Below are positions 46,792 through 59,915 of a DNA stretch of 64,000 bases, in pieces. The notes under the pieces were generated by a model. That model made no database searches. It worked only from the letters and a program-made list of their open reading frames with translations, and was not told the origin of the DNA. The first letter of the stretch is position 1; every line of letters begins with the position of its first letter. Source of the DNA: Comamonadaceae bacterium OTU4NAUVB1 (GTDB lineage: Bacteria; Pseudomonadota; Gammaproteobacteria; Burkholderiales; Burkholderiaceae_C); assembly GCA_024372625.1 (NCBI GenBank), contig CP099605.1:2897001-2961000 (forward strand), given 5' to 3'. A program made the translations under genes and the position numbers.

Positions 46792-47654
46792 CGCCACCGC
46801 CACGCGCTGGCCTCGGCGCGGCGCTCGCGCTGCTGCCGGTGGCGGCTCTCGCGCACGGCAATGCCTTCACGGGCGAAGGCGCCCACGCGCCCATCTGGCT
46901 GTCGCAGGGACTGTTCGCCATGGCTTGGCTGGGCTATGGCTTCGGCGCGATGCGCCGGCGGCCGACCTTCGCCGGCCGAGCCCTGTTCCACACGGCGATG
47001 CTGGTGGCGGGACTGGCGCTGTTCGGCCCGTTCGACGACTGGGCCGAATCGAGCACCGCCTTGCACATGGTGCAGCACATGCTCCTGATCCTGGTGGTGG
47101 CGCCGCTGGCGGTGCTGGCCCGCCCGCTCGCGCAGTGGCGCTCCGCCATCGGGCCGGCGGCCGATGCCGCGTGGCGCCCGTTGCTGCGCCTGACGCGCCA
47201 TCCCGGCGCCTGCGCGCTGCTGCACGCCGCGGCGATCTGGATCTGGCACGCGCCGGGGCCCTACATGGCCGCGGTGTTCGACAACTGGCTGCACGTGGCC
47301 GAGCACGCGTCCTTCCTGTTCACGGGCTGGCTGTTCTGGTGGTCGGTGCTGCGCGGCGGGCGCCAGGGCACGCTGGCGGCGGCGTCGGCGCTGCTGTTCA
47401 CCGCCATGCACACGGGCGCGCTGGGCGCGCTGCTGACCTTCTCCACCCGGCCGCTCTACTGGCGCGAGTCGCGCGAACTCTGGGACCAGCAGCTCGCCGG
47501 TCTCGTGATGTGGGTGCCCGGGGGATTCGCCTACCTGCTCGCGGCCGCCTGGGCGGCGTACCGGTGGCTGCAGGCTCGGCAGCATGAGTCTCATGCGACG
47601 TCGCGCGGACGGCCCGACGCCCCTCATCCACCTCGCCAGGAAACGCACCCATGA
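46782..47654 (+). CDS. ctaG: CtaG-like cytochrome c oxidase assembly protein (caa3 type)
   Basis: 290-residue inner-membrane protein of the caa3_CtaG family with about seven hydrophobic segments. Landmarks are HMVQHMLLILVVAPL, WIWHAPGPYMAAV and HVAEHASFLFTGWLFWW, whose His residues may bind copper. The family helps insert CuB. Start at GTG 46782; GTG 46776 is equally possible. It overlaps the small membrane gene upstream and the FdhF-like gene downstream (ATGA at 47651). Confidence 0.87.
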   Translation: MHLTPPPRAGLGAALALLPVAALAHGNAFTGEGAHAPIWLSQGLFAMAWLGYGFGAMRRRPTFAGRALFHTAMLVAGLALFGPFDDWAESSTALHMVQHMLLILVVAPLAVLARPLAQWRSAIGPAADAAWRPLLRLTRHPGACALLHAAAIWIWHAPGPYMAAVFDNWLHVAEHASFLFTGWLFWWSVLRGGRQGTLAAASALLFTAMHTGALGALLTFSTRPLYWRESRELWDQQLAGLVMWVPGGFAYLLAAAWAAYRWLQARQHESHATSRGRPDAPHPPRQETHP

Positions 47655-49972
47655 CCCCCGAGATCGACCACGAGAGCGGTACCGCCATCAGGATCGAGGC
47701 CTACGACGGCCCGGTCGGAGGCTGGGGCTCGGCCACCTCGCTCGCGCACCACGTCAAGCACCACGAGGCCTTCGGCGCCCTGCCCGAACTGGTGCGGCAG
47801 AACAAGGCCGACGGCTTCGCCTGCACCAGCTGCGCCTGGGCCAAGCCGGCCAAGGCCCACACGGCGGAGTTCTGCGAGAACGGCGCCAAGGCGACCTTCG
47901 CCGAACTCACCAGCCTGCGCGCCGGCGTCGACTTCTTCGAGCGCCACACCGTGACCGAGCTGCTCGCGTGGCCCGACCACGACCTGGAGCACGAGGGGCG
48001 CCTGACCGACCCGCTGCGCTACGACGCCGGGCGCGACCGCTACGTGCCGGTGGCCTGGCACGAGGCGTTCGCGGACATCGGCCAGCGGCTGCGCGCCCTG
48101 AAGGACACCGGCGGGCCGGACCAGACGGTCTTCTACGCTTCGGGCCGGGCCTCGCTGGAGACCTCCTACATGTACCAGCTGTTCGCGCGGCTCTACGGCA
48201 CCAACAACCTGCCCGACAGCTCCAACATGTGCCACGAGAGCACCTCCGTGGCGCTCAAGGAGGCGATCGGCGTGCCGGTGGGCACGGTGCGCCTGGAGGA
48301 CTTCGAGCACACCGACTGCCTGCTGTTCTTCGGCCAGAACGTGGGCACCAACAGCCCCCGCATGCTCCATCCGCTGCAGGAGGCCCGCAGGCGCGACGTG
48401 CCGGTGATCGTCTTCAATCCGCTGCGCGAACGCGGGCTGGAGGCCTTCACCAACCCGCAGAGCCCGATCGAGATGGCCACGCGCTCGGAGACGCGCATCG
48501 CCACGCAGTACCTGCAGGTGCGCGCGGGGGGCGACATCGCCGCCATCGCCGGCATGTGCAAGGCACTGCTGGACCTCGACGACACGGCCATCGCCGAGGG
48601 CCGGGCACGGGTGATCGATGCCGACTTCATCGGCACGCACACGCACGGCTTCGAGGATTTCGCGCGCTTCGTGCGCGAACAGGACTGGACGCGGCTGGAG
48701 ACCGAATCCGGGCTGTCCCGCGTGGCGCTGACCGAGGCGGCGCGCACCTACGCCAAGGCCAAGGCCGTCATCGGCGTCTACGGCATGGGCCTCACGCAGC
48801 ACAAGCTGGGTGTGGACAACGTGCGCATGCTGGTCAACCTGCTGCTCATGGGCGGCCACATCGGCCGGCGCGGCGCGGGCGTGTGTCCCGTGCGCGGCCA
48901 CTCCAACGTGCAGGGCCAGCGCACGGTGGGCATCTCGGAGAAGCCCGAGCTGGTGCCGCTGGACCAGCTGGCCGGGCAATACGGCTTCGAGCCGCCGCGC
49001 CACAAGGGGCTCAACACGGTGGAGGCCTGCGAGGCCATGCTCGAAGGCCGCGTGAAGGCCTTCGTCGCGCTGGGCGGCAACTTCGTCCGCGCGGTGCCCG
49101 ACCACCACCGCATGGAGCCGGCCTGGCAGGCGCTCGAACTCACCGTGCAGGTCGCCACCAAGCTCAACCGCAGTCACCTGCTGCACGGCAAGGTGGCCTA
49201 CCTGCTGCCATGCCTGGGGCGCATCGAGCGCGACGTGCAGCTCGGCGGCGTGCAGACCGTGACGATCGAGGACAGCACCGCGCGCATCCACGCCTCGCGC
49301 GGCCACCACGCGCCGGCGAGCGCGCGGCTCCTGTCGGAGCAGCGCATCGTCGCCGGCCTGGCCAAGGCGACGCTCGATCCCAACCCGAAGGTCGACTGGG
49401 ACGCCTGGTGCGCCGACTACGCGCTCGTGCGCGACGCCATCGAGACCACCTACCCGAAGGACTTCAAGGACTTCAACGCGCGCATGCACCAGCCCGGGGG
49501 CTTCCCGCGCCCGCTGGCCGCGACCGAACGGCGCTGGGAGACGAAGAGCGGCAAGGCCGAGTTCAAGGTGCCCGCGGCCCTGCACGCCGCCTTCGAGGGC
49601 GACGGTGGCGCCGACGTGCTGCGCCTGGTCACGCTGCGCAGCAACGACCAGTTCAACACCACCATCTACGGCTACGACGACCGCCTGCGCGGCATCGACG
49701 GCACCCGCGAGGTGCTGCTGCTCAGCGCCCTGGACATCGACCGGCTGGGCCTGGTGAACGGCCAGCGCGTCACGCTGGCCAGCGCGGCGGGCGACGGCAT
49801 CGAGCGCGAGGTGAAGAACCTGCGCGTGACGGTCTACGACCTGCCCCCGGGCACCTGCGCGGCCTATTTCCCGGAGTGCAACCCGGTGATCCCGCTGGCG
49901 CACTACGCCCAGGAGAGCAAGGTGCCGGCGGCCAAGTCGGTGCCGGTGCGGGTGCGCGCGCCGGCCGCCTGA
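47651..49972 (+). CDS. FdhF/YdeP-family molybdopterin oxidoreductase
   Basis: 773-residue molybdenum enzyme of the formate-dehydrogenase-like YdeP group. The expected active-site residue is Cys in SSNMCHESTSVALK, where E. coli FdhF has selenocysteine. Cofactor-binding blocks include FFGQNVGTNSPRM, YGMGLTQHKLGVDN and GAGVCPVRGHSNVQG. The N-terminal Cys pair (CTSCAW, then C in EFCENG) is incomplete compared with the 4Fe-4S motif of FdhF, as in YdeP. Substrate unknown; YdeP is linked to acid resistance. The start is coupled to ctaG, which places it in the oxidase operon. No fdhD is nearby. Confidence 0.9.
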   Translation: MTPEIDHESGTAIRIEAYDGPVGGWGSATSLAHHVKHHEAFGALPELVRQNKADGFACTSCAWAKPAKAHTAEFCENGAKATFAELTSLRAGVDFFERHTVTELLAWPDHDLEHEGRLTDPLRYDAGRDRYVPVAWHEAFADIGQRLRALKDTGGPDQTVFYASGRASLETSYMYQLFARLYGTNNLPDSSNMCHESTSVALKEAIGVPVGTVRLEDFEHTDCLLFFGQNVGTNSPRMLHPLQEARRRDVPVIVFNPLRERGLEAFTNPQSPIEMATRSETRIATQYLQVRAGGDIAAIAGMCKALLDLDDTAIAEGRARVIDADFIGTHTHGFEDFARFVREQDWTRLETESGLSRVALTEAARTYAKAKAVIGVYGMGLTQHKLGVDNVRMLVNLLLMGGHIGRRGAGVCPVRGHSNVQGQRTVGISEKPELVPLDQLAGQYGFEPPRHKGLNTVEACEAMLEGRVKAFVALGGNFVRAVPDHHRMEPAWQALELTVQVATKLNRSHLLHGKVAYLLPCLGRIERDVQLGGVQTVTIEDSTARIHASRGHHAPASARLLSEQRIVAGLAKATLDPNPKVDWDAWCADYALVRDAIETTYPKDFKDFNARMHQPGGFPRPLAATERRWETKSGKAEFKVPAALHAAFEGDGGADVLRLVTLRSNDQFNTTIYGYDDRLRGIDGTREVLLLSALDIDRLGLVNGQRVTLASAAGDGIEREVKNLRVTVYDLPPGTCAAYFPECNPVIPLAHYAQESKVPAAKSVPVRVRAPAA

Positions 49973-50012: not shown

Positions 50013-53000
50013 TCAGTCGGCCGGTCGCAGGCGACCGTCCTCGTCGATCAGCGCGCCGGCGGCGACGCTGGCGTCGATGGCGAGGTCGACGCGGCTTTCG
50101 GCCGGTGGCGTGTCGGGCGCCGCGCCGGTCAGTCCGCAGACCGCGTCGGCCACGTCCTTGCGCGTCGCCGCGCCGGTCTCGCGCAGCACGTGGTTGACGA
50201 GGTTCGACAGCTCCTCGACGCAGACGTCGCCGATGTCGCGGCGCGAGGACGGCACGGTGTCCCCGGCCACCCGGGCCACGTCCGACGCGCCGGGATCGGC
50301 GCCCGCGGGCCAGTAGAAGCGCTTGCCGAGACCTTCCCCCGGCGCCGGCTCGGTGGTGCGGGGCACGTCGTCCGGCACCAGCGCGCGCAGCCGGTCGGCC
50401 AGGCGCGGGCTGACCCGCTCCAGGCCCCAGGCGCGTGCCACGCGGGCGAACAGGACGGCCTCGGGCAGCGGGCCCTCGACCTCGGCCACCTCGCGCAGCT
50501 GCGCGGCCAGCACGAGTTCGGACTCCTCGTCGAAGAACGAGGCCGGATCGTTGGCCGGCAGCGCGGCCGGCGCGTAGACCGCCAGGACGGGACGCGCGAC
50601 CGGCTCGGGCGCCACGGGATCGGCGGGCCCGGCGCCGGCCGGCACGGCCTCCGCACGATCCGCGTGCACCCCCGCATCCGCATCCGCATCCGCATCCGCA
50701 CCTGCACCCGCGTCCATGGCCATGGCCGTGCGCGCGACGTCGCCCGCGCCGGCATCCGCGTCCACGTCCGGGTCGATGCCCGCGTCCGCGACGGCGGCCG
50801 ACGCGCCCGGTACCGCCGGCGGCGCGGCGACCAGCCCCTCCAGCAGCTTCACGACCTTGGCGATCTCGCCTTCCGCGTCGAGCCACCAGTCGGTCGACCA
50901 GATGCGGTGGATCTTCCAGCCGAGCCCTTCGAGGACGTGCTGGCGCAGCCGGTCGCGGTCGCGCGCGGTGGCGCCGGAGTGGTAGGTGCGGCCGTCGCAC
51001 TCGATGCCCACCAGGTAGCGCCCCGGCGCGCGGGGGTCGACCACCGCCAGGTCGATGCGGTAGCCCGAGCACCCGACCTGCGGATGCACCACCCAGCCGC
51101 GCGAGCGCAGCATGCCGATCACGGCGACCTCGAACGGGCTGTCCGGGTCGAGCCCGGTGGGCAGGCTGCGGGCGGACAGCGCGCGCGCCCCGCCGATGGC
51201 GAACTCCAGATAGTGCTTGAGGTCGCGCACGCCGGCCGCGCGCACGCGGGCCAGGTCGATCTGCTCGGGCAGCAGGGTGCTGAAGATCACCACCGCCTCG
51301 CGCGCCCGCGAGATCGCCACGTTCAGGCGGCGGTGGCCGCCCTCGCCGTTGAGCGGGCCGAAGTTCATCGTCATCTTGCCGGCCGCGTCGGGGCCGTAGG
51401 TGATCGAGAAGAAGATCACGTCGCGCTCGTCGCCCTGCACGTTCTCCAGGTTCTTGATGAAGAGCTTCTCCTGGGTCCCCTGCGAGCGCGCGGCGATGGC
51501 GCGGTCGAGCGCCGGCTCGGCGCGGCGCCGGGCGTCCAGCAGGGTCTCGATGAGCGCCTGCTGGGGCTGGTTGAAGGTCACCACGCCGAGCGTGAGGTGC
51601 GCGCGCGCCGCGTCGAGGTGGTGCGCCTCGATGGTGGCCACGATGGCGTCGGCCTCGGCGCGGTTGGTGCGCGAGCCGCCGCGGTCGTAGACGCCGGCCA
51701 CGCGCTCGAAGCGCACCGCCACGTCGTCGGTCACGGGCGAGGGGAAGGTCACCAGCTGCGAGTCGTAGTAGGTGACGTTGCTGAAGGTGATGAGGCTCTC
51801 GTGGCGGCTGCGGTAGTGCCACTGCAGGCTCAGGCGGTTCATGCCCGCGCCCAGGCACTCGTCCAGGATGCTCTCCAGGTCGCGCACCTGCTCGTCGGCG
51901 GGCACGCCCTCCTCGGGCTCGGCGGACTTGTTGAAGAAGTTCGTCGGCGGCAGCTGCTTGGGGTCGCCCACCACCGCCAGCTGGCGGCCGCGCGCGATCA
52001 CGCCCACCGCGTCCCACACCGGGATCTGCGAGGCCTCGTCGAACACCACCAGGTCGAACGGCGCGTAGCCCGCGTCGAGGTACTGCGACACCGACAGCGG
52101 CGACATCAGGAGGCAGGGCTTCAGGCGCGGCAGCAGCGTGGGCAGGGCCTGCACCAGCTGGCGCACCGGCATGTGGCCGCGCTGCTTCTGGCGCTCGCGC
52201 CGCAGCCGGCCGAGTTCGCTGTCGGCGCCCGCCGCCGCGCCGCCGGCCGCCGGGATGCGGCCGGCCAGCGTGGCGGCGATGTAGCGCTCGGTGAGCTTCT
52301 GGAAGCGCGCGTCGGCGGCGCGGAACTCGCGGATCTTGCGGTCGTGGTCGGCGCTGGAGAAGCCGCGCAGGACCGGGTCGCGGTCGATGGTGCGCTTGAG
52401 CCACCAGGTGCGGTAGCTCACCTCGAAATGCGATTCGACCTCGCCCAGCGCGATGGCGCCCGCCTCCACGTCGCCGACGACGCCCTGCAGGCCGAGCGCG
52501 ATGGCGGCCTCGCGGGCGCTGCGCCACAGGCACCACGGCTGCAGCAGGCGCCGCGCGCCCTGCCAGGTCTGCATCAGCGCGCGCAGGCGTTCGAGGGCGC
52601 CGTCGGCGTCCTCGTCGCCCGCGAGCGGCGCCACCGGCTGCGCCAGCGCCTCGACGCCCGCCAGGCACCGGCGCAAGTCGAGCCAGGCCTCGCGGTAGCC
52701 GACCAGCGCGCGGCCGGCCGTGCCGCCGGAGGCCAGGTCGGCGCGTCGCTCGGCCACCAGGGGCCGCAGCGCGGCGCGCAGCGCCTCGCCACGCGCCGCG
52801 TCGCCGCCGGCCAGGCGCGCGACGGCCTCAGCGAAGCGCCCTGCCCAGGCCTCGTGCGCGGCGAGCGCGGCCCAGTCGGTGTCGGCGCCGGCGTAGGCGT
52901 CGTCGAGCAGCGCCTGCGCATCGGCCTGCGCGGCGCGCAGGAAGGCGTCCTCGTCGTTGACCTCGCCGAGCGGGCCGAGCATGGCGCGCACCTGCTCGGG

Positions 53001-56000
53001 CGCCGGGCGCCGGCCGTCGGCGCGGAAGCCCGAGAGCCGGCCCGTGATCGCGCGCTGGGCGAGCAGCGACTTCGGCCACCAGGTCGAAGTGGCGAGCGAC
53101 CATTCGCCCAGCAGCTCGACCGCGTTCAGCTTGGCGAGCGTCGCGCTCCAGCCGTCGCCCAGGCGCAGCCAGGCGGCGTTGCGCGCCGCGCCGTGGCGCG
53201 CGAGCGCCTGCAGCCGCGCGCGCGTGGGCGCGTCGTGCGCCTCGCGCGCGAGGCCGGTGGGCACGCCGGGCGCGGCCAGCAGCAGGTCGGCGAGCTCGTC
53301 GAGCAGGCCGTGCGCGCGCAGGCCCATGCCGCTCGCGCCGATGCCCAGCTGCGCGGCCAGCGTGGCGGTGCGCTCGCGCAGCACCGTGGCGGCGCGCTCC
53401 AGCGCCTGCGCCTGCGCCATGAGCTCGTCGCCCCAGCCCGGCGACCAGTCGGGCCGCCCGACGCACGCGAGCGGATGGCCACGCAGGTCGCCGAGGGCGC
53501 CGGCGAGCGCCTGGATGCGGCGCGCCGCCTCGCGCAGGCGGTCGAGCGCGGCGCGGTCGTGCACGAGCGGATCGCTCCAGGGCATCGAAGCGGTGCGCTC
53601 GCCCGTGTGCGCGATGGACGTGCCCATGGTCTCGTGGACGGTCAGGCCGTTCGGATGTTCGCGGTGCAGGGCGTCGACCAGGCCGTTGAGGTCCTGGCGC
53701 AGCACGGCCAGCCGCTCGGCCTCGCGCGACCAGTCGTCGGCGGTGCGCTGGCCGGCCAGGTCGAGCGAGCCGGCGAGCTGCTGCAGCACCTCGGACTTCT
53801 TCGACTTGGACGAGTGCAGTTCGAGGCAGAACGGCCCCAGGCCGATGTCGGCGAGGCGCCGGTGGACGACCGACAGCGCGGCCATCTTCTCCGAGACGAA
53901 CAGCACCGTCTTGCCCTTGGCCAGCGAGTGCGCGATGAGGTTGGTGATGGTCTGCGACTTGCCCGTGCCGGGCGGGCCCTCGAGCACCAGGTCGCGCCCG
54001 GCGTCGATGGCGCAGATGGCCTTGAGCTGGGACGAGTCGGCCAGCAGCGGCGCGAGGATGTCCTGCGGGCGGTGCGTCTCGTCGAGGCGCTCGAACTCGG
54101 CCGGGTCGTGGGACGCCTGCGCGAAGGCCTCGCCCGGGTGGTCGATCAGGTGGCGCACCACGCGGTTGGCCTTGAGCTGCTCGGTGCGGTCCTGCAGGTC
54201 GCGCCACATCAGGTACTTGGTGAAGGAGAAGATGCCCAGGTGGGCCTGCTCTAGCACCTCCCACTTCGGGATCTCCGCCACCGCCAGCCGGAAGGCCTGC
54301 AGCACGCGCGCGACGTCGACGCCCTTCTCGTCCACGGGAATGGCGTCGAGCCCCGTCACGCGCAGCTCGAAGTTCGTGCGCAGCAGCTGCAGCAGGGTCG
54401 GGTTGACGATCGCCTCGTCGTCGTGGCGCGCCAGCCGGAAGCCCGCGCGCACCGACTGGCGCTGCAGCGTCACCGGGATCAGCAGGATCGGCGCGGCGTG
54501 CACCGTCTCGGCCTTCTCGTCCTCGGTCCACTGCAGCAGGCCCAGGGCCAGGTAGAGCGTGTTGGCCCCGCCCTCCTCCAGCCCGATGCGGGCGGCCGCG
54601 TGGATGGCCAGCAGGTGGCCGTCCAGCGCCTCGGGGGCGACGCGCGCGAGCAGTTCGCGCTGGCCCAGCGCGTCGAGCGCCATGTCGTCGAGCGGCGCCC
54701 GGCCGGTGCCCCGGCTGGCGTGCACCTGCGCCACGCGCGGATCGAGCCCCTCCATCAGCGTCGGCAGCGCCCGCAGGTGGAAGTCGCGGCCCTCGGCCAG
54801 GGCGTCCTCCAGCCGCGCGAGGTCGGGCGCGACCAGGTGCAGCGTCGCCTTGGTCGGCTTGAAGTTCAGCAGCCTGTTGCGCAGCGTCAGGTCCAGCAGC
54901 TTCGACTTCCACTGGGCGAGCCGGCCCTCGGGCGTGTCATCGGCCGGGCCGTCGAGCGCGACGAGCGTGTCGGCGTCCAGCGCGGGCAGCGGCGGCGTCG
55001 GCTCGATCGCCGCGGGCGGCTCCTCCCCGGCCTCGCCGGGCGCACCGTCGCCCGGGGCCGGCGCGCGCGAGGGCAGCGGCTTGATCTGCAGCTCGCGCGC
55101 GCGGTGGATGTCGATGGCGTAGCGGAAGCCGTCGTCGTCGCGCAGGTGCGCCAGGCCCTGCTCCATGGCCACGCGCAGCGACGGCCGGATGCTGTGGTGG
55201 TGGGCCACGCCGGTGGTCTCGAAGACCAGCAGCTCGCCGCTGTCCACGCGCTTGCGCACGGCCTGCACGTCGTCGGTCAGCGGATCGGCGAAGCTCGCCG
55301 GGTGAAGCCAGACACCGACCCAGGCGTGGCCTTCCTTGACCAGCACCACCGGGCGCAGCCCGGCCTGCTCGAAGGCCGAGGCGAACAGCATCGCCAGGTC
55401 GAGGCAGGTGGCGACGCGGTGCGCGAGGATGCGGTCGGGCGTGCGGATCTTCTGGCCGTCGCTGCCGAAGGAGGCCGGCGGCTCGACGTACTGCAGCCCC
55501 TCGGCGCCGAGCGTGCTGTAGATCGCCGAGACCTGCTTCCAGACCGTGTCGCGGCTGCGGGACTGGTAGCCGTTCATCGACAGCTCGCCGTGCGCCTCGC
55601 GCAGCAGGCGCGAGGCCTTGCCCACCAGGGTGTCGACCGCCGGGTTGTTGGGCATGCAGAAGGCCGCCAGCAGCTCGGGCAGCGCGCGCGTGCCGGCCCA
55701 CTGGTCGTGGGCCAGCACCTCCACGGGACGGGCCTCCCGGGCGATCTCCACGCCCTCGGTGCTCACCGTGACCTCGATGGCGGCGCGCACCGATTCCCCC
55801 AGGTCGCCGAGCCAGGCGTGGTCGGGTCGCAGGTCCACCGGCGCGAAGCGGCGCGTCTCGCCCGGCGCCAGGCGGTCGAAGCGCAGGCGCGCGCCCTGCG
55901 CGAAGGGCGGATTGCAGGCGATGCGCACCTCGACGTCGGCCAGCGCGCGGGGACCGCGGTGCGTCAGCCGCAGCGAGCGCAGCACCGGCACGGCGTTCTG

Positions 56001-56222
56001 GATGGAGGCATGGCCGAGCGTGGCATCGGCCTCGATGGCGATGGCGATCACGGGGTCGGCATCGTCGCGGATCGCATTGGCGGCGGGGCCGGGGACATCG
56101 GGCGCCACGTTCGCCCCGGAGGCCGTGGCGGGGGCCGCGACGGCCACGCCGCCGAGGGACGCGGCGCGCTCGCCTGCCGTCGGAACCGGGCCTCGGCCCG
56201 GTTCGTCTTCTTGTTTGTTCAT
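50013..56222 (-). CDS. Giant DUF4011 / SF1 helicase / Vsr-like nuclease / DUF3320 protein (Hhe-like anti-phage protein)
   Basis: 2069-residue protein. Order: an N-terminal part with a transglutaminase-like Cys/His patch (about 265-300), DUF4011 (about 430-720; KSKLLDLTLRNRLLNF), SF1 helicase with Walker A GPPGTGKS (about 747), DEAS Walker B (about 1394), GDPKQLPPTNFF, and RRLNVAISRARE (about 1629), then a Vsr-like endonuclease domain (about 1695-1780; the acid residues in FEVAVIG, YRIDLAV and GIECDGRTYHSG), an Asp-Ala repeat linker (about 1820-1870), and C-terminal DUF3320 (about 1995-2069). The DUF4011-helicase-Vsr build is the single-gene Hhe defence type reported from bacterial defence islands. 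It stands alone here. Defence role inferred. Confidence 0.88.
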   Translation of the reverse strand: MNKQEDEPGRGPVPTAGERAASLGGVAVAAPATASGANVAPDVPGPAANAIRDDADPVIAIAIEADATLGHASIQNAVPVLRSLRLTHRGPRALADVEVRIACNPPFAQGARLRFDRLAPGETRRFAPVDLRPDHAWLGDLGESVRAAIEVTVSTEGVEIAREARPVEVLAHDQWAGTRALPELLAAFCMPNNPAVDTLVGKASRLLREAHGELSMNGYQSRSRDTVWKQVSAIYSTLGAEGLQYVEPPASFGSDGQKIRTPDRILAHRVATCLDLAMLFASAFEQAGLRPVVLVKEGHAWVGVWLHPASFADPLTDDVQAVRKRVDSGELLVFETTGVAHHHSIRPSLRVAMEQGLAHLRDDDGFRYAIDIHRARELQIKPLPSRAPAPGDGAPGEAGEEPPAAIEPTPPLPALDADTLVALDGPADDTPEGRLAQWKSKLLDLTLRNRLLNFKPTKATLHLVAPDLARLEDALAEGRDFHLRALPTLMEGLDPRVAQVHASRGTGRAPLDDMALDALGQRELLARVAPEALDGHLLAIHAAARIGLEEGGANTLYLALGLLQWTEDEKAETVHAAPILLIPVTLQRQSVRAGFRLARHDDEAIVNPTLLQLLRTNFELRVTGLDAIPVDEKGVDVARVLQAFRLAVAEIPKWEVLEQAHLGIFSFTKYLMWRDLQDRTEQLKANRVVRHLIDHPGEAFAQASHDPAEFERLDETHRPQDILAPLLADSSQLKAICAIDAGRDLVLEGPPGTGKSQTITNLIAHSLAKGKTVLFVSEKMAALSVVHRRLADIGLGPFCLELHSSKSKKSEVLQQLAGSLDLAGQRTADDWSREAERLAVLRQDLNGLVDALHREHPNGLTVHETMGTSIAHTGERTASMPWSDPLVHDRAALDRLREAARRIQALAGALGDLRGHPLACVGRPDWSPGWGDELMAQAQALERAATVLRERTATLAAQLGIGASGMGLRAHGLLDELADLLLAAPGVPTGLAREAHDAPTRARLQALARHGAARNAAWLRLGDGWSATLAKLNAVELLGEWSLATSTWWPKSLLAQRAITGRLSGFRADGRRPAPEQVRAMLGPLGEVNDEDAFLRAAQADAQALLDDAYAGADTDWAALAAHEAWAGRFAEAVARLAGGDAARGEALRAALRPLVAERRADLASGGTAGRALVGYREAWLDLRRCLAGVEALAQPVAPLAGDEDADGALERLRALMQTWQGARRLLQPWCLWRSAREAAIALGLQGVVGDVEAGAIALGEVESHFEVSYRTWWLKRTIDRDPVLRGFSSADHDRKIREFRAADARFQKLTERYIAATLAGRIPAAGGAAAGADSELGRLRRERQKQRGHMPVRQLVQALPTLLPRLKPCLLMSPLSVSQYLDAGYAPFDLVVFDEASQIPVWDAVGVIARGRQLAVVGDPKQLPPTNFFNKSAEPEEGVPADEQVRDLESILDECLGAGMNRLSLQWHYRSRHESLITFSNVTYYDSQLVTFPSPVTDDVAVRFERVAGVYDRGGSRTNRAEADAIVATIEAHHLDAARAHLTLGVVTFNQPQQALIETLLDARRRAEPALDRAIAARSQGTQEKLFIKNLENVQGDERDVIFFSITYGPDAAGKMTMNFGPLNGEGGHRRLNVAISRAREAVVIFSTLLPEQIDLARVRAAGVRDLKHYLEFAIGGARALSARSLPTGLDPDSPFEVAVIGMLRSRGWVVHPQVGCSGYRIDLAVVDPRAPGRYLVGIECDGRTYHSGATARDRDRLRQHVLEGLGWKIHRIWSTDWWLDAEGEIAKVVKLLEGLVAAPPAVPGASAAVADAGIDPDVDADAGAGDVARTAMAMDAGAGADADADADAGVHADRAEAVPAGAGPADPVAPEPVARPVLAVYAPAALPANDPASFFDEESELVLAAQLREVAEVEGPLPEAVLFARVARAWGLERVSPRLADRLRALVPDDVPRTTEPAPGEGLGKRFYWPAGADPGASDVARVAGDTVPSSRRDIGDVCVEELSNLVNHVLRETGAATRKDVADAVCGLTGAAPDTPPAESRVDLAIDASVAAGALIDEDGRLRPAD
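50674..50697. repeat. GCATCC hexanucleotide tandem repeat inside the helicase-nuclease gene
   Basis: Four perfect GCATCC units (GGATGC on the coding strand) followed by two degenerate ones. They encode an Asp-Ala repeat in the linker between the nuclease domain and DUF3320. Because units are 6 bp, gain or loss changes linker length and not the reading frame. Confidence 0.85.
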
Positions 56223-56857: not shown

Positions 56858-57388
56858 ATGCCGATCCCGCCGCCTTCCCCCCTCCGCATCTCCGCTCCCG
56901 CATCGTCCCGCCGGCGCTTCGTGCTCGCCGCCGCCACGGCGGTGGCCGCGCCCCTGGCGACCTCGCTCGCCCGGGCGCACCACGGCTGGAGCGGCTTCGA
57001 CCAGGCGCGCCCGATCTACCTCGAAGGCCGCGTCGTGGCCAGCCGGTGGCAGAACCCGCATGCCGAACTGACGCTGGAGACCACGCCCGGCCTCGCCGTG
57101 CCCGCCGACCTGGCGCGCCGGCCGGTGCCGGCCCAGGGCGCCGGCGTCGACGGTCCGGCGCTGCTGGCGAAGGCGACCGTGCCGCGCCGCGCCGACCGGC
57201 GCTGGACCGTCGAGCTCGCCCCGCTCACGCGCATGGGGGCCTGGAACGTGGCGGAGATCAAGCCCGGCGAGCGCATCGCCGCCGTCGGCTTCACGACCCA
57301 GGACGAACGTGGCGAGACCGCGGTGATGCGCGTGGAGTACCTGTTCGTGGGCGACAAGGTCTACGGCCTGCGCTCGAGCCCGGCCTGA
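56858..57388 (+). CDS. DUF6152-family exported protein
   Basis: 176 residues. A twin-arginine signal (SRRRFVLAAATAVAAPLA, cut near residue 40) leads to a small beta-rich domain starting AHHGWSGFD, the DUF6152 hallmark. Function unknown. It follows the DUF6644-like gene by 39 bp. Its end is 37 bp from the convergent NADH dehydrogenase stop. Confidence 0.8.
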   Translation: MPIPPPSPLRISAPASSRRRFVLAAATAVAAPLATSLARAHHGWSGFDQARPIYLEGRVVASRWQNPHAELTLETTPGLAVPADLARRPVPAQGAGVDGPALLAKATVPRRADRRWTVELAPLTRMGAWNVAEIKPGERIAAVGFTTQDERGETAVMRVEYLFVGDKVYGLRSSPA

Positions 57389-57425: not shown

Positions 57426-58745
57426 TCAGTGCAGCTTCACGCGCGGTCCGGTGCCGCGCGTGAGGGCGCGCGAGGCCGTGCCCAGCGCGGTCTTCCAGAC
57501 GCCGTGGATGGCGACCTCGTGCATCTTGAAGAGCGACTGGTACATGGCCCGGGCGAACAGCCCCTCGACCCACAGGTTGCCCCCGACCAGCCCGCCCATG
57601 AGGTTGCCCACGGGCGAGCTGTCGCCCAGCGACACCAGCGAGCCGAAGTCGCGGTACTGCCATTCGCGCATCGGCTGCCCGCGCAGGCGCCGCGCCAGTT
57701 CGCGCGCCAGGTGCGAGGCCTGCTGGTGCGCGGCCTGCGCCCGGGGCGGCACGTTGCCGCCGTGCTTGAGCCAGGGCGCGGCGGCGCAGTCGCCGATGGC
57801 GAAGACCGCCTCGTCGCGCGTGGTCTGCAGCGTCGGCCCGACCACCAGCTGGTTGAACGGGTTGGTCTCCAGCCCGCCCAGGTCCTTGAGCCAGCCCGCG
57901 GCCTTCACGCCCGCCGCCCACACCACCAGCTGCGCCCGCAGGAAACGCTCGCCCGCGAGCTGCACGCCGTCGTGCGTGACCGCCGTGACGCGCGTGCCGA
58001 CCATCACCCGCACGTTCATGGTCCCGAGCAGTTCGGTGGCCGCCTGCGCGATGCGCTCGGACAGCGCCGGCAGGATGCGCGGGCCGGCCTCGATCAGGTG
58101 GATGCGGATGTCCGTCTCGGGGTCGATCCGGTCCAGGCCATAGGACACCAGCGTGCGCATGGAACGGTGCAGCTCCGCGGCCAGCTCCACGCCCGTGGCG
58201 CCGGCGCCGATGATGGCGATCTCCACCAGCCGCGACTCGTTCTGCGTGCCCCGCACGTGCGCGCTCATGCAGGCGTTGACCAGCCGGCTGTGGAAGCGTT
58301 CGGCCTGCTTGGGCGTCTCCAGCGCGATGGCGTGCTCGGCGACGCCGGGCGTGCCGAAGTCGTTGGTCTGGCTGCCGGCGGCGAGCACCAGCGTGTCGTA
58401 GCCGCGCTCGTAGGCCGGCGTGATGGGCAGCCCCTCGTCGTCCTGCGCGGAAGCCACCAGCACCTTGCGGCGCGCGCGGTCCAGGCCGGTGACCTCGCCG
58501 ATGCGGTAGCGGAAGCCGTGCCAGTGCGACTGCGCCAGGTAGTTGGTCGCGTGGTCGTTCACGTCGACGCTGCCGGCGGCGATCTCGTGCAGGTGCGGCT
58601 TCCAGAAATGGGTGCGCGCCTTGTCGATCAGGGTGACGTGGGCCTTGCCCGGCTTGCCCAGCCGGTCGCCCAGCCGGGTCGCCAGTTCCAGTCCTCCGGC
58701 GCCCCCGCCGACGATCACGATGCGGTGCGGTTGCTCGACTTTCAC
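57426..58745 (-). CDS. Type II NADH dehydrogenase (NDH-2-like flavoprotein)
   Basis: 439-residue FAD/NAD(P) oxidoreductase that passes electrons from NADH to quinone without pumping. Dinucleotide folds: GGGAGGLELATRLG (FAD, near residue 13) and GAGATGVELAAEL (NADH); the C-terminal FAD motif is AVFAIGDCAAAP. The C-terminal amphipathic helix (about 385-439) should bind the membrane. Translation begins at GTG 58745 behind GAGAGG. No close respiratory neighbour, but the oxidase block lies upstream in the window. Confidence 0.9.
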   Translation of the reverse strand: MKVEQPHRIVIVGGGAGGLELATRLGDRLGKPGKAHVTLIDKARTHFWKPHLHEIAAGSVDVNDHATNYLAQSHWHGFRYRIGEVTGLDRARRKVLVASAQDDEGLPITPAYERGYDTLVLAAGSQTNDFGTPGVAEHAIALETPKQAERFHSRLVNACMSAHVRGTQNESRLVEIAIIGAGATGVELAAELHRSMRTLVSYGLDRIDPETDIRIHLIEAGPRILPALSERIAQAATELLGTMNVRVMVGTRVTAVTHDGVQLAGERFLRAQLVVWAAGVKAAGWLKDLGGLETNPFNQLVVGPTLQTTRDEAVFAIGDCAAAPWLKHGGNVPPRAQAAHQQASHLARELARRLRGQPMREWQYRDFGSLVSLGDSSPVGNLMGGLVGGNLWVEGLFARAMYQSLFKMHEVAIHGVWKTALGTASRALTRGTGPRVKLH

Positions 58746-59046
58746 GGAGGACCTCTCAGACCGGAAGATGGTGATTCTTTTCGCGCCGCGCCGCGCCCAT
58801 GGCACGGCGCGCGGCCGTGCAGGGTAGCGTGGCCGGCAGACCGCGTCCAGCGCGCTTCACCGCATCGCGACCCCGTGCCGATAGCGTCGGAGTTTTGCCC
58901 GCGAACCGTGGACAACTGTGTGGACAACCTTGTGGGCTGTCGCCGGGATCGTTGTCCGGCGCGGCCTGCGACGCGATGCCCGCGAAATCAGCATGTGGAC
59001 GGTGCCGCGGACGGCGGCGGCGCGCGCGTCGAGGCGGACCGCCGGA
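58746..59046. other. 301-bp intergenic region with GTGGACAAC direct repeats
   Basis: No gene is visible. Two GTGGACAAC copies lie at 58908-58916 and 58920-58928, 12 bp apart. TGTGGACAA at 58919-58927 differs from a DnaA box in one base. GGCGCGCGG-rich sequence fills the remainder. No terminator was recognised after the hydrolase gene. Confidence 0.4.
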
Positions 59047-59839: not shown

Positions 59840-59915
59840 TGGTGGCCTGGGTCGGAATCGAACCAACGACACGCGGATTTTCAATCCGCTGCTCTACCAA
59901 CTGAGCTACCGGGCC
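59840..59915 (-). tRNA. tRNA-Phe (anticodon GAA)
   Basis: The 76-nt gene folds into a cloverleaf. Acceptor ends GGCCCGG / CCAGGCC-A pair, the anticodon loop TTGAAAA gives GAA, the T-loop reads GGTTCGATTCC, and the 3' CCA is encoded. It is transcribed leftwards. A TATAAT box for it lies just inside the end of the response regulator gene. Confidence 0.97.

Follow-up and report, generated by a model that had tools for sequence, protein, structure and literature searches.

The reading frame and its domains

We have analysed a gene for a large helicase-nuclease in a 64,000-nucleotide stretch of contig CP099605.1 (assembly GCA_024372625.1) from Comamonadaceae bacterium OTU4NAUVB1; this whole stretch is referred to below as the window. 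The open reading frame (ORF) lies on the minus strand, with an ATG at position 56222 and a stop codon ending at 50013, and specifies a protein of 2069 amino acids. An alternative in-frame start is present upstream at 56903. When the protein was aligned with 21 relatives, to which it shows 33–89% identity, Met1 (56222) fell in the first-methionine column in 20 of the 22 sequences, with a gap at this point in the remaining two. This genome contains a single DUF4011 gene. The domains follow one another from the N-terminus in the order immunoglobulin (Ig)-like sandwich, transglutaminase-like core, DUF4011, superfamily 1 (SF1) helicase, Vsr-like nuclease, linker and DUF3320, at the following window coordinates.

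50013..56222, minus strand: complete ORF, ProA-family helicase-nuclease (NF058533, 2069 amino acids)
55707..56060, minus strand: Ig-like beta-sandwich (residues 55–172)
55071..55706, minus strand: transglutaminase-like core (about residues 173–384), candidate triad Cys273/His299/Glu335; the fold match is weak
54381..54902, minus strand: DUF4011 (residues 441–614; Pfam PF13195, 157.7 bits)
51282..54038, minus strand: SF1 helicase (residues 729–1647; AAA_11 and AAA_12), Walker A K755, Walker B D1395/E1396
50844..51134, minus strand: Vsr-like MTES_1575 nuclease (residues 1697–1793; PF18741, 128.7 bits), E1698/D1724/E1741/D1743
50628..50792, minus strand: Asp/Ala-rich linker (about residues 1811–1865, read from the translation)
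50400..50540, minus strand: DUF3320 (residues 1895–1941; PF11784, 41.6 bits)

Five Pfam families, in the order DUF4011, AAA_11, AAA_12, MTES_1575 nuclease and DUF3320, all score above their cut-offs, with the best stretch of AAA_11 at residues 729–792 (51 bits) and AAA_12 at residues 1454–1647 (51.8 bits). DUF3320 is described as a winged helix in the accessible part of PMC3710099. The predicted catalytic residues of the helicase (K755, D1395, E1396) and of the nuclease (E1698, D1724, E1741, D1743) are present in the window's protein and conserved, being identical in all 22 aligned sequences. The original prediction, which left the strand unstated, had the coordinates of the 2069-residue frame right, and its account of DUF4011, an SF1 helicase, a Vsr-like nuclease and DUF3320 in a single frame, together with the helicase motifs, the acidic residues of the nuclease and an Asp-Ala linker, agrees with what we find.

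Assignment to the ProA family

The protein matches the NCBIfam model NF058533, 'anti-phage protein ProA', with 2200.8 bits against a cut-off of 1500, and residues 72–2034 align with positions 3–1901 of the 1903 in the profile. A match of this size to a model of this length is far beyond chance, and the gene is one more copy of an already catalogued family. The likeness is nearly whole-length, including the N-terminal module, and there is no essential difference; the long Asp/Ala-rich linker is a feature of the window's copy. Because NF058533 covers residues 72–2034, the N-terminal domain belongs to the known ProA family. The original prediction had held this domain to be undescribed, and this proved incorrect, as the model spans it and a fusion of this kind was published in 2013 (PMC3710099, in its accessible part; see below). 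The PADLOC candidate PDC-S37 covers ProA from DUF4011 onward (1265.6 bits, residues 433–2064).

The gene had been filed as a member of the Hhe system. Hhe proteins share DUF4011, the helicase and a Vsr-type nuclease, so that the general architecture is alike, and the PADLOC Hhe model yields 626.7 bits on the window's protein. The NCBIfam Hhe model NF042953, however, gives 886.9 bits, far under its cut-off of 2000, whereas NF058533 passes its own; Hhe membership was rejected on score, and we regard this reading as very improbable. The broader claim of a defence-type helicase-nuclease stands. Our literature search, with most subscription papers outside its reach, did not turn up any publication that treats ProA as a defence protein, nor any on PDC-S37; in three papers that contain the word, 'ProA' has other uses (the flanking gene proA, the label of a prophage and a strain genotype). 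The anti-phage activity therefore rests on the database name.

The N-terminal module

An AlphaFold2 model of the N-terminal part (predicted local distance difference test, pLDDT, 91.7) shows an Ig-like sandwich followed by a region that contains Cys273, His299 and Glu335. Transglutaminase-like enzymes carry a Cys at the start of a helix, a His on a strand and an Asp or Glu at the end of a strand. In the predicted structure Cys273 lies at a helix start, His299 at a strand start and Glu335 after a strand, a placement that is the transglutaminase-like layout and marks the three residues as a candidate triad. These residues were followed in an alignment of 43 rows, comprising the window's protein and 42 others chosen for coverage from 107 mostly short or partial proteins. 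Cys and His are each present in 43/43 rows, and an acid in 43/43 (Glu in 42, Asp in one).

Profile and fold searches give lower scores. Transglut_core (Pfam) reaches 12.6 bits on the whole protein and 15.8 bits in a 382-residue piece, below its cut-off of 23, and DUF553 (Pfam) reaches 15.4 bits in the same piece, below 20.5. A Foldseek search puts transglutaminase 3 in its first row, with an alignment of 415 columns that is nevertheless a weak match (TM-score 0.21; root-mean-square deviation 17.4). The original prediction had likened an N-terminal Cys/His patch to a transglutaminase domain and proposed folding this region in search of a Cys-His-Asp triad; the model and the conserved triad bear out the resemblance, with Glu as the acid and with Pfam scores under the cut-offs.

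The published fusion of 2013 joins a transglutaminase-like peptidase, an SF1 helicase, a Vsr DNase, a winged helix-turn-helix (wHTH; DUF3320) and HEPN, and in the accessible part of PMC3710099 the transglutaminase domain is proposed to add another layer of defence by cleaving proteins. These MTES_1575-type giants (HEPN-transglutaminase-SF1 helicase-Vsr-wHTH) give the Pfam nuclease family its name. The window's protein has the nuclease, SF1 helicase and DUF3320/wHTH that define them and shares their transglutaminase-like domain. They differ in carrying HEPN, of which no Pfam family was found in the window's protein at expectation values (E) up to 10, a search that a divergent HEPN could escape.

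The module is an add-on to the helicase-nuclease core, since not every protein that passes NF058533 has it: two ProA-like proteins (L102 and L103) exceed the cut-off but do not match the module profile. A search of 30 frames in 10 distant helicase loci (E up to 100) likewise did not find the module; these loci are not established as Hhe, and the one that was scored gave 475.8 bits. A profile-profile run with seven N-terminal pieces from six of the distant loci was of little value (Neff 1.4; three rows kept; one of the seven pieces an antisense frame).

The module outside ProA

The first sign of a setting other than ProA was a set of three genome-search matches in frames of about 800 residues. 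A protein search returned 21 relatives, 20 of this build and one DUF4011 piece, and a genome scan yielded 30 loci (L121–L150; for example L122:8001-11754 and L138:7830-11641) in Burkholderiales, Bradyrhizobium, Gemmatimonas and kin, Myxococcota and Pirellulaceae, among others. These proteins of about 800 residues have a CHAT-like (caspase-like) domain in front and the ProA module as their C-terminal half, which by its matches to the ProA module (E about 1e-34 to 1e-56) is clearly homologous to it. CHAT (Pfam) is passed by P0141 with 27.4 bits against a cut-off of 24; the other scanned proteins fall below the cut-off or give no match. A model of P0122 has a mean pLDDT of 70.2, good in the CHAT part and mostly under 70 in the transglutaminase part. 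In a PDB search with this model the five rows with E below 0.001 are all of the SAVED-CHAT filament, and Csx29, caspase-11 and separase appear later among unrelated rows.

A hydrolase gene of one family follows in 26 of the 30 loci and precedes in one; two loci meet a contig end and one lacks the gene. All four hydrolase proteins scanned pass DUF7379 (Pfam), and the Ser, Asp and His are kept in 30/30 rows, three of which repeat other loci. In six Bradyrhizobium loci (L144–L148 and L150) CHAT and the transglutaminase part are encoded by two frames that adjoin or overlap, the module frame having 366–418 residues, and the module may thus stand alone.

Eight operon proteins gave no PADLOC family at E up to 0.01, and the sole NCBIfam match, with one protein scanned per gene, was that of the ProA model to the shared module, under its cut-off. 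The CHAT-transglutaminase and DUF7379 operon is new here, and we found no name for it in PADLOC or NCBIfam. According to the accessible part of a 2020 survey (PMC7159879), the caspase-like domains of certain conflict systems are always accompanied by an alpha/beta-hydrolase gene, and transglutaminase-like peptidases only rarely take the place of trypsin or caspase domains; we met no single protein joining caspase-like and transglutaminase-like domains in that part of the survey. The operon likewise has a caspase-like domain together with an alpha/beta-hydrolase gene. Unlike the pairs described there, it has mostly lost the CHAT Cys and carries an intact transglutaminase-like module in the same or the next gene.

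The two halves differ in what they have kept. All 20 closer homologues have the CHAT Cys; in the wider set the CHAT His is kept in 29/29 readable rows and the Cys in only 7/29, a count that includes near-identical loci (such as L123–L125) and so not only independent events. An active CHAT protease was dropped as a candidate on this count. In the transglutaminase part of the 30 loci Cys and His are kept in 30/30 and the acid in 29/29, and among the CHAT-linked rows of the module alignment the figures are 28/28 for Cys, 28/28 for His and 27/27 for Glu where there is a letter. As the CHAT Cys is mostly lost and the transglutaminase triad kept, it is the transglutaminase half, and not CHAT, that seems to do the enzymatic work in most loci.

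Inactive proteins of the transglutaminase fold exist, Xp-C/Rad4 for example, and the module in ProA could be non-enzymatic, with a binding or regulatory role, either in sensing a phage protein or in restraining the nuclease. The weak fold match of the transglutaminase core fits such a role, as does the existence of L102 and L103, whose core can do without the module. An inactive domain would nevertheless be expected to lose residues, as the adjoining CHAT did with its Cys in 22/29 readable loci, whereas Cys, His and acid persist in every module row and in every CHAT-linked row with letters. We therefore consider a non-enzymatic module unlikely, if deserving of some weight. The module probably retains activity, as a cysteine peptidase (or amidase).

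Distribution and gene neighbourhoods

In a survey of 101 genomes of the genus, the window's genome included, 48 have some match to the ProA protein and 11 exceed the ProA cut-off, a count that leaves out one genome with the gene in two contig pieces (G022) and one with a partial gene (G106). The ProA gene is accessory and patchily distributed, which bears out its description as something other than a housekeeping gene. The copy in G048, a genome from another family of the order, has 67% identity to the window's protein, whereas two copies from the same genus have 41%, and the closer likeness of the more distant host suggests horizontal transfer.

Plasmid and phage records were also searched. 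Some tblastn match is found in 457 of 72,556 plasmid records, one of which matches 80% or more of the query at a single site. Two of the four plasmid records examined, from P. aeruginosa and P. phymatum, are typed conjugative; the tblastn relatives on them, which were not scored against NF058533, show about 47% identity over 70–71% of the query. The relative on a Falsirhodobacter plasmid lies among metabolic genes, and that in a Comamonas stretch lies near UvrD helicase, AAA ATPase and TIR genes. One of 50,697 phage records matches, an unannotated faecal record, over 67% of the query at 40%.

On one side of the window's gene are COX2 and a molybdopterin oxidoreductase, and on the other DUF6152, a pyridine-nucleotide oxidoreductase, a response regulator, an NtrY-like sensor and DUF4390 (all by Pfam). 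No integrase or transposase family was found by Pfam among 20 neighbouring ORFs, in line with the absence of mobile-element marks originally reported. The flanking genes (57426–58805 and 47651–49972) were sought in 37 genomes each, the window's own included; among the matches listed no other genome has both on one contig, and the best (61–63% and 61–64%) lie in different genomes, which offered no syntenic empty site for comparison. A tRNA-Phe (gaa) gene is located at window positions 59840–59915, about 3.6 kb from the ProA gene.

Twelve neighbourhoods of ProA or ProA-like genes (L094–L105) were fetched, their genes being called with a caller trained per locus or taken as all ORFs of at least 90 amino acids. 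None of the 14 genes around the window's ProA matches any of the 814 ORFs in these loci. Among the locus pairs, broadly shared surroundings are seen only between L099 and L100 (33 ORF pairs above 50% identity), with two shared pairs between L094 and L095, and ProA copies sit in differing neighbourhoods. In three loci (L099, L100 and L104) ProA ends soon after the nuclease, without linker and DUF3320 (the match reaches to about query residue 1807–1816 or profile position 1721–1731).

Ten chosen neighbours were scanned with PADLOC (three each from L094 and L095, two each from L102 and L103); neighbours were scanned in some loci only, with L096, L097, L099, L100 and L105 outside the scan. Those of L102 are JetC and JetA (Wadjet-type) and those of L103 are JukA and JukB. 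L095 has a helicase with RTasHel/GajB matches and a DEDDh/PDC-S48-like protein, and L094 has one weak LmuB match as well as DUF3584 (Pfam); PADLOC gave no family for the other three of the ten. ProA-like copies stand beside Wadjet-type or Juk genes in 3 of the 12 fetched loci. The module-less ProA-like proteins at L102:299-11697 and L103:955-8380 lie directly before JetA/JetC and JukA/JukB, respectively.

These data also bear on whether the gene encodes a chromosomal helicase-nuclease for DNA repair, any effect on phages being a by-product. The respiratory and regulatory genes around the window's copy and its G+C content, typical of the host, are compatible with this, and every P. aeruginosa isolate is reported to have a DUF4011 gene (PMC10250203, in its accessible part). 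A repair role accords poorly, however, with the patchy distribution in the genus, the differing neighbourhoods of the copies, the relatives on plasmids typed conjugative and the defence-gene neighbours of some relatives, and we judge it improbable.

Proposed function

We think it likely that the window's gene is complete and belongs, as a single-gene system, to the ProA defence family, encoding a DNA-acting helicase-nuclease with a probable cysteine-enzyme module. The helicase core would load onto invading DNA and move along it, the Vsr-like nuclease would cut that DNA, and DUF3320 and DUF4011 may aid DNA binding and coupling. The transglutaminase-like module would then act either in self-processing of ProA on activation, or as a second effector attacking a phage or host protein. 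The DNA-directed part of this mechanism follows from the protein families, and the protein-directed part from the conservation of the residues in two different settings.

Several observations weigh against this interpretation. The anti-phage label is a database name only, and the transglutaminase core scores under the Pfam cut-offs; apart from transglutaminase 3, the Foldseek rows mostly span about 120 columns and are placed on the beta-sandwich, a common fold. The G+C content of the gene (0.748, compared with 0.732 for the window) does not point to recent import. Fixed DUF4011 genes exist, as the accessible part of the P. aeruginosa report indicates for a protein that may or may not belong to ProA. 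No defence neighbour was found in the window among the 20 ORFs, which were scanned with Pfam and not PADLOC, and the scanned neighbours of L098, L101 and L104 show no defence family in Pfam. Two of the three relatives clearly flanked by defence genes are without the N-terminal module.

We suggest tentatively, and with rather more doubt than belief, that the Ig-like and transglutaminase-like parts form one portable immune module with catalytic activity. ProA would carry this module fused to a DNA-destroying helicase-nuclease; in the CHAT-DUF7379 operon it would replace the proteolysis of a degenerate caspase-like domain and control a lipase-like effector. If this is so, ProA and the CHAT operon would share a trigger or a substrate. 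A more useful outcome than an extra copy of ProA is that the N-terminal module becomes open to study outside the giant protein. Since it occurs as a frame of 366–418 residues or as a CHAT fusion, with the triad kept wherever it is readable, a small protein now offers a way to test the idea put forward in 2013, namely protein cleavage by the transglutaminase-like domain as an additional defence.

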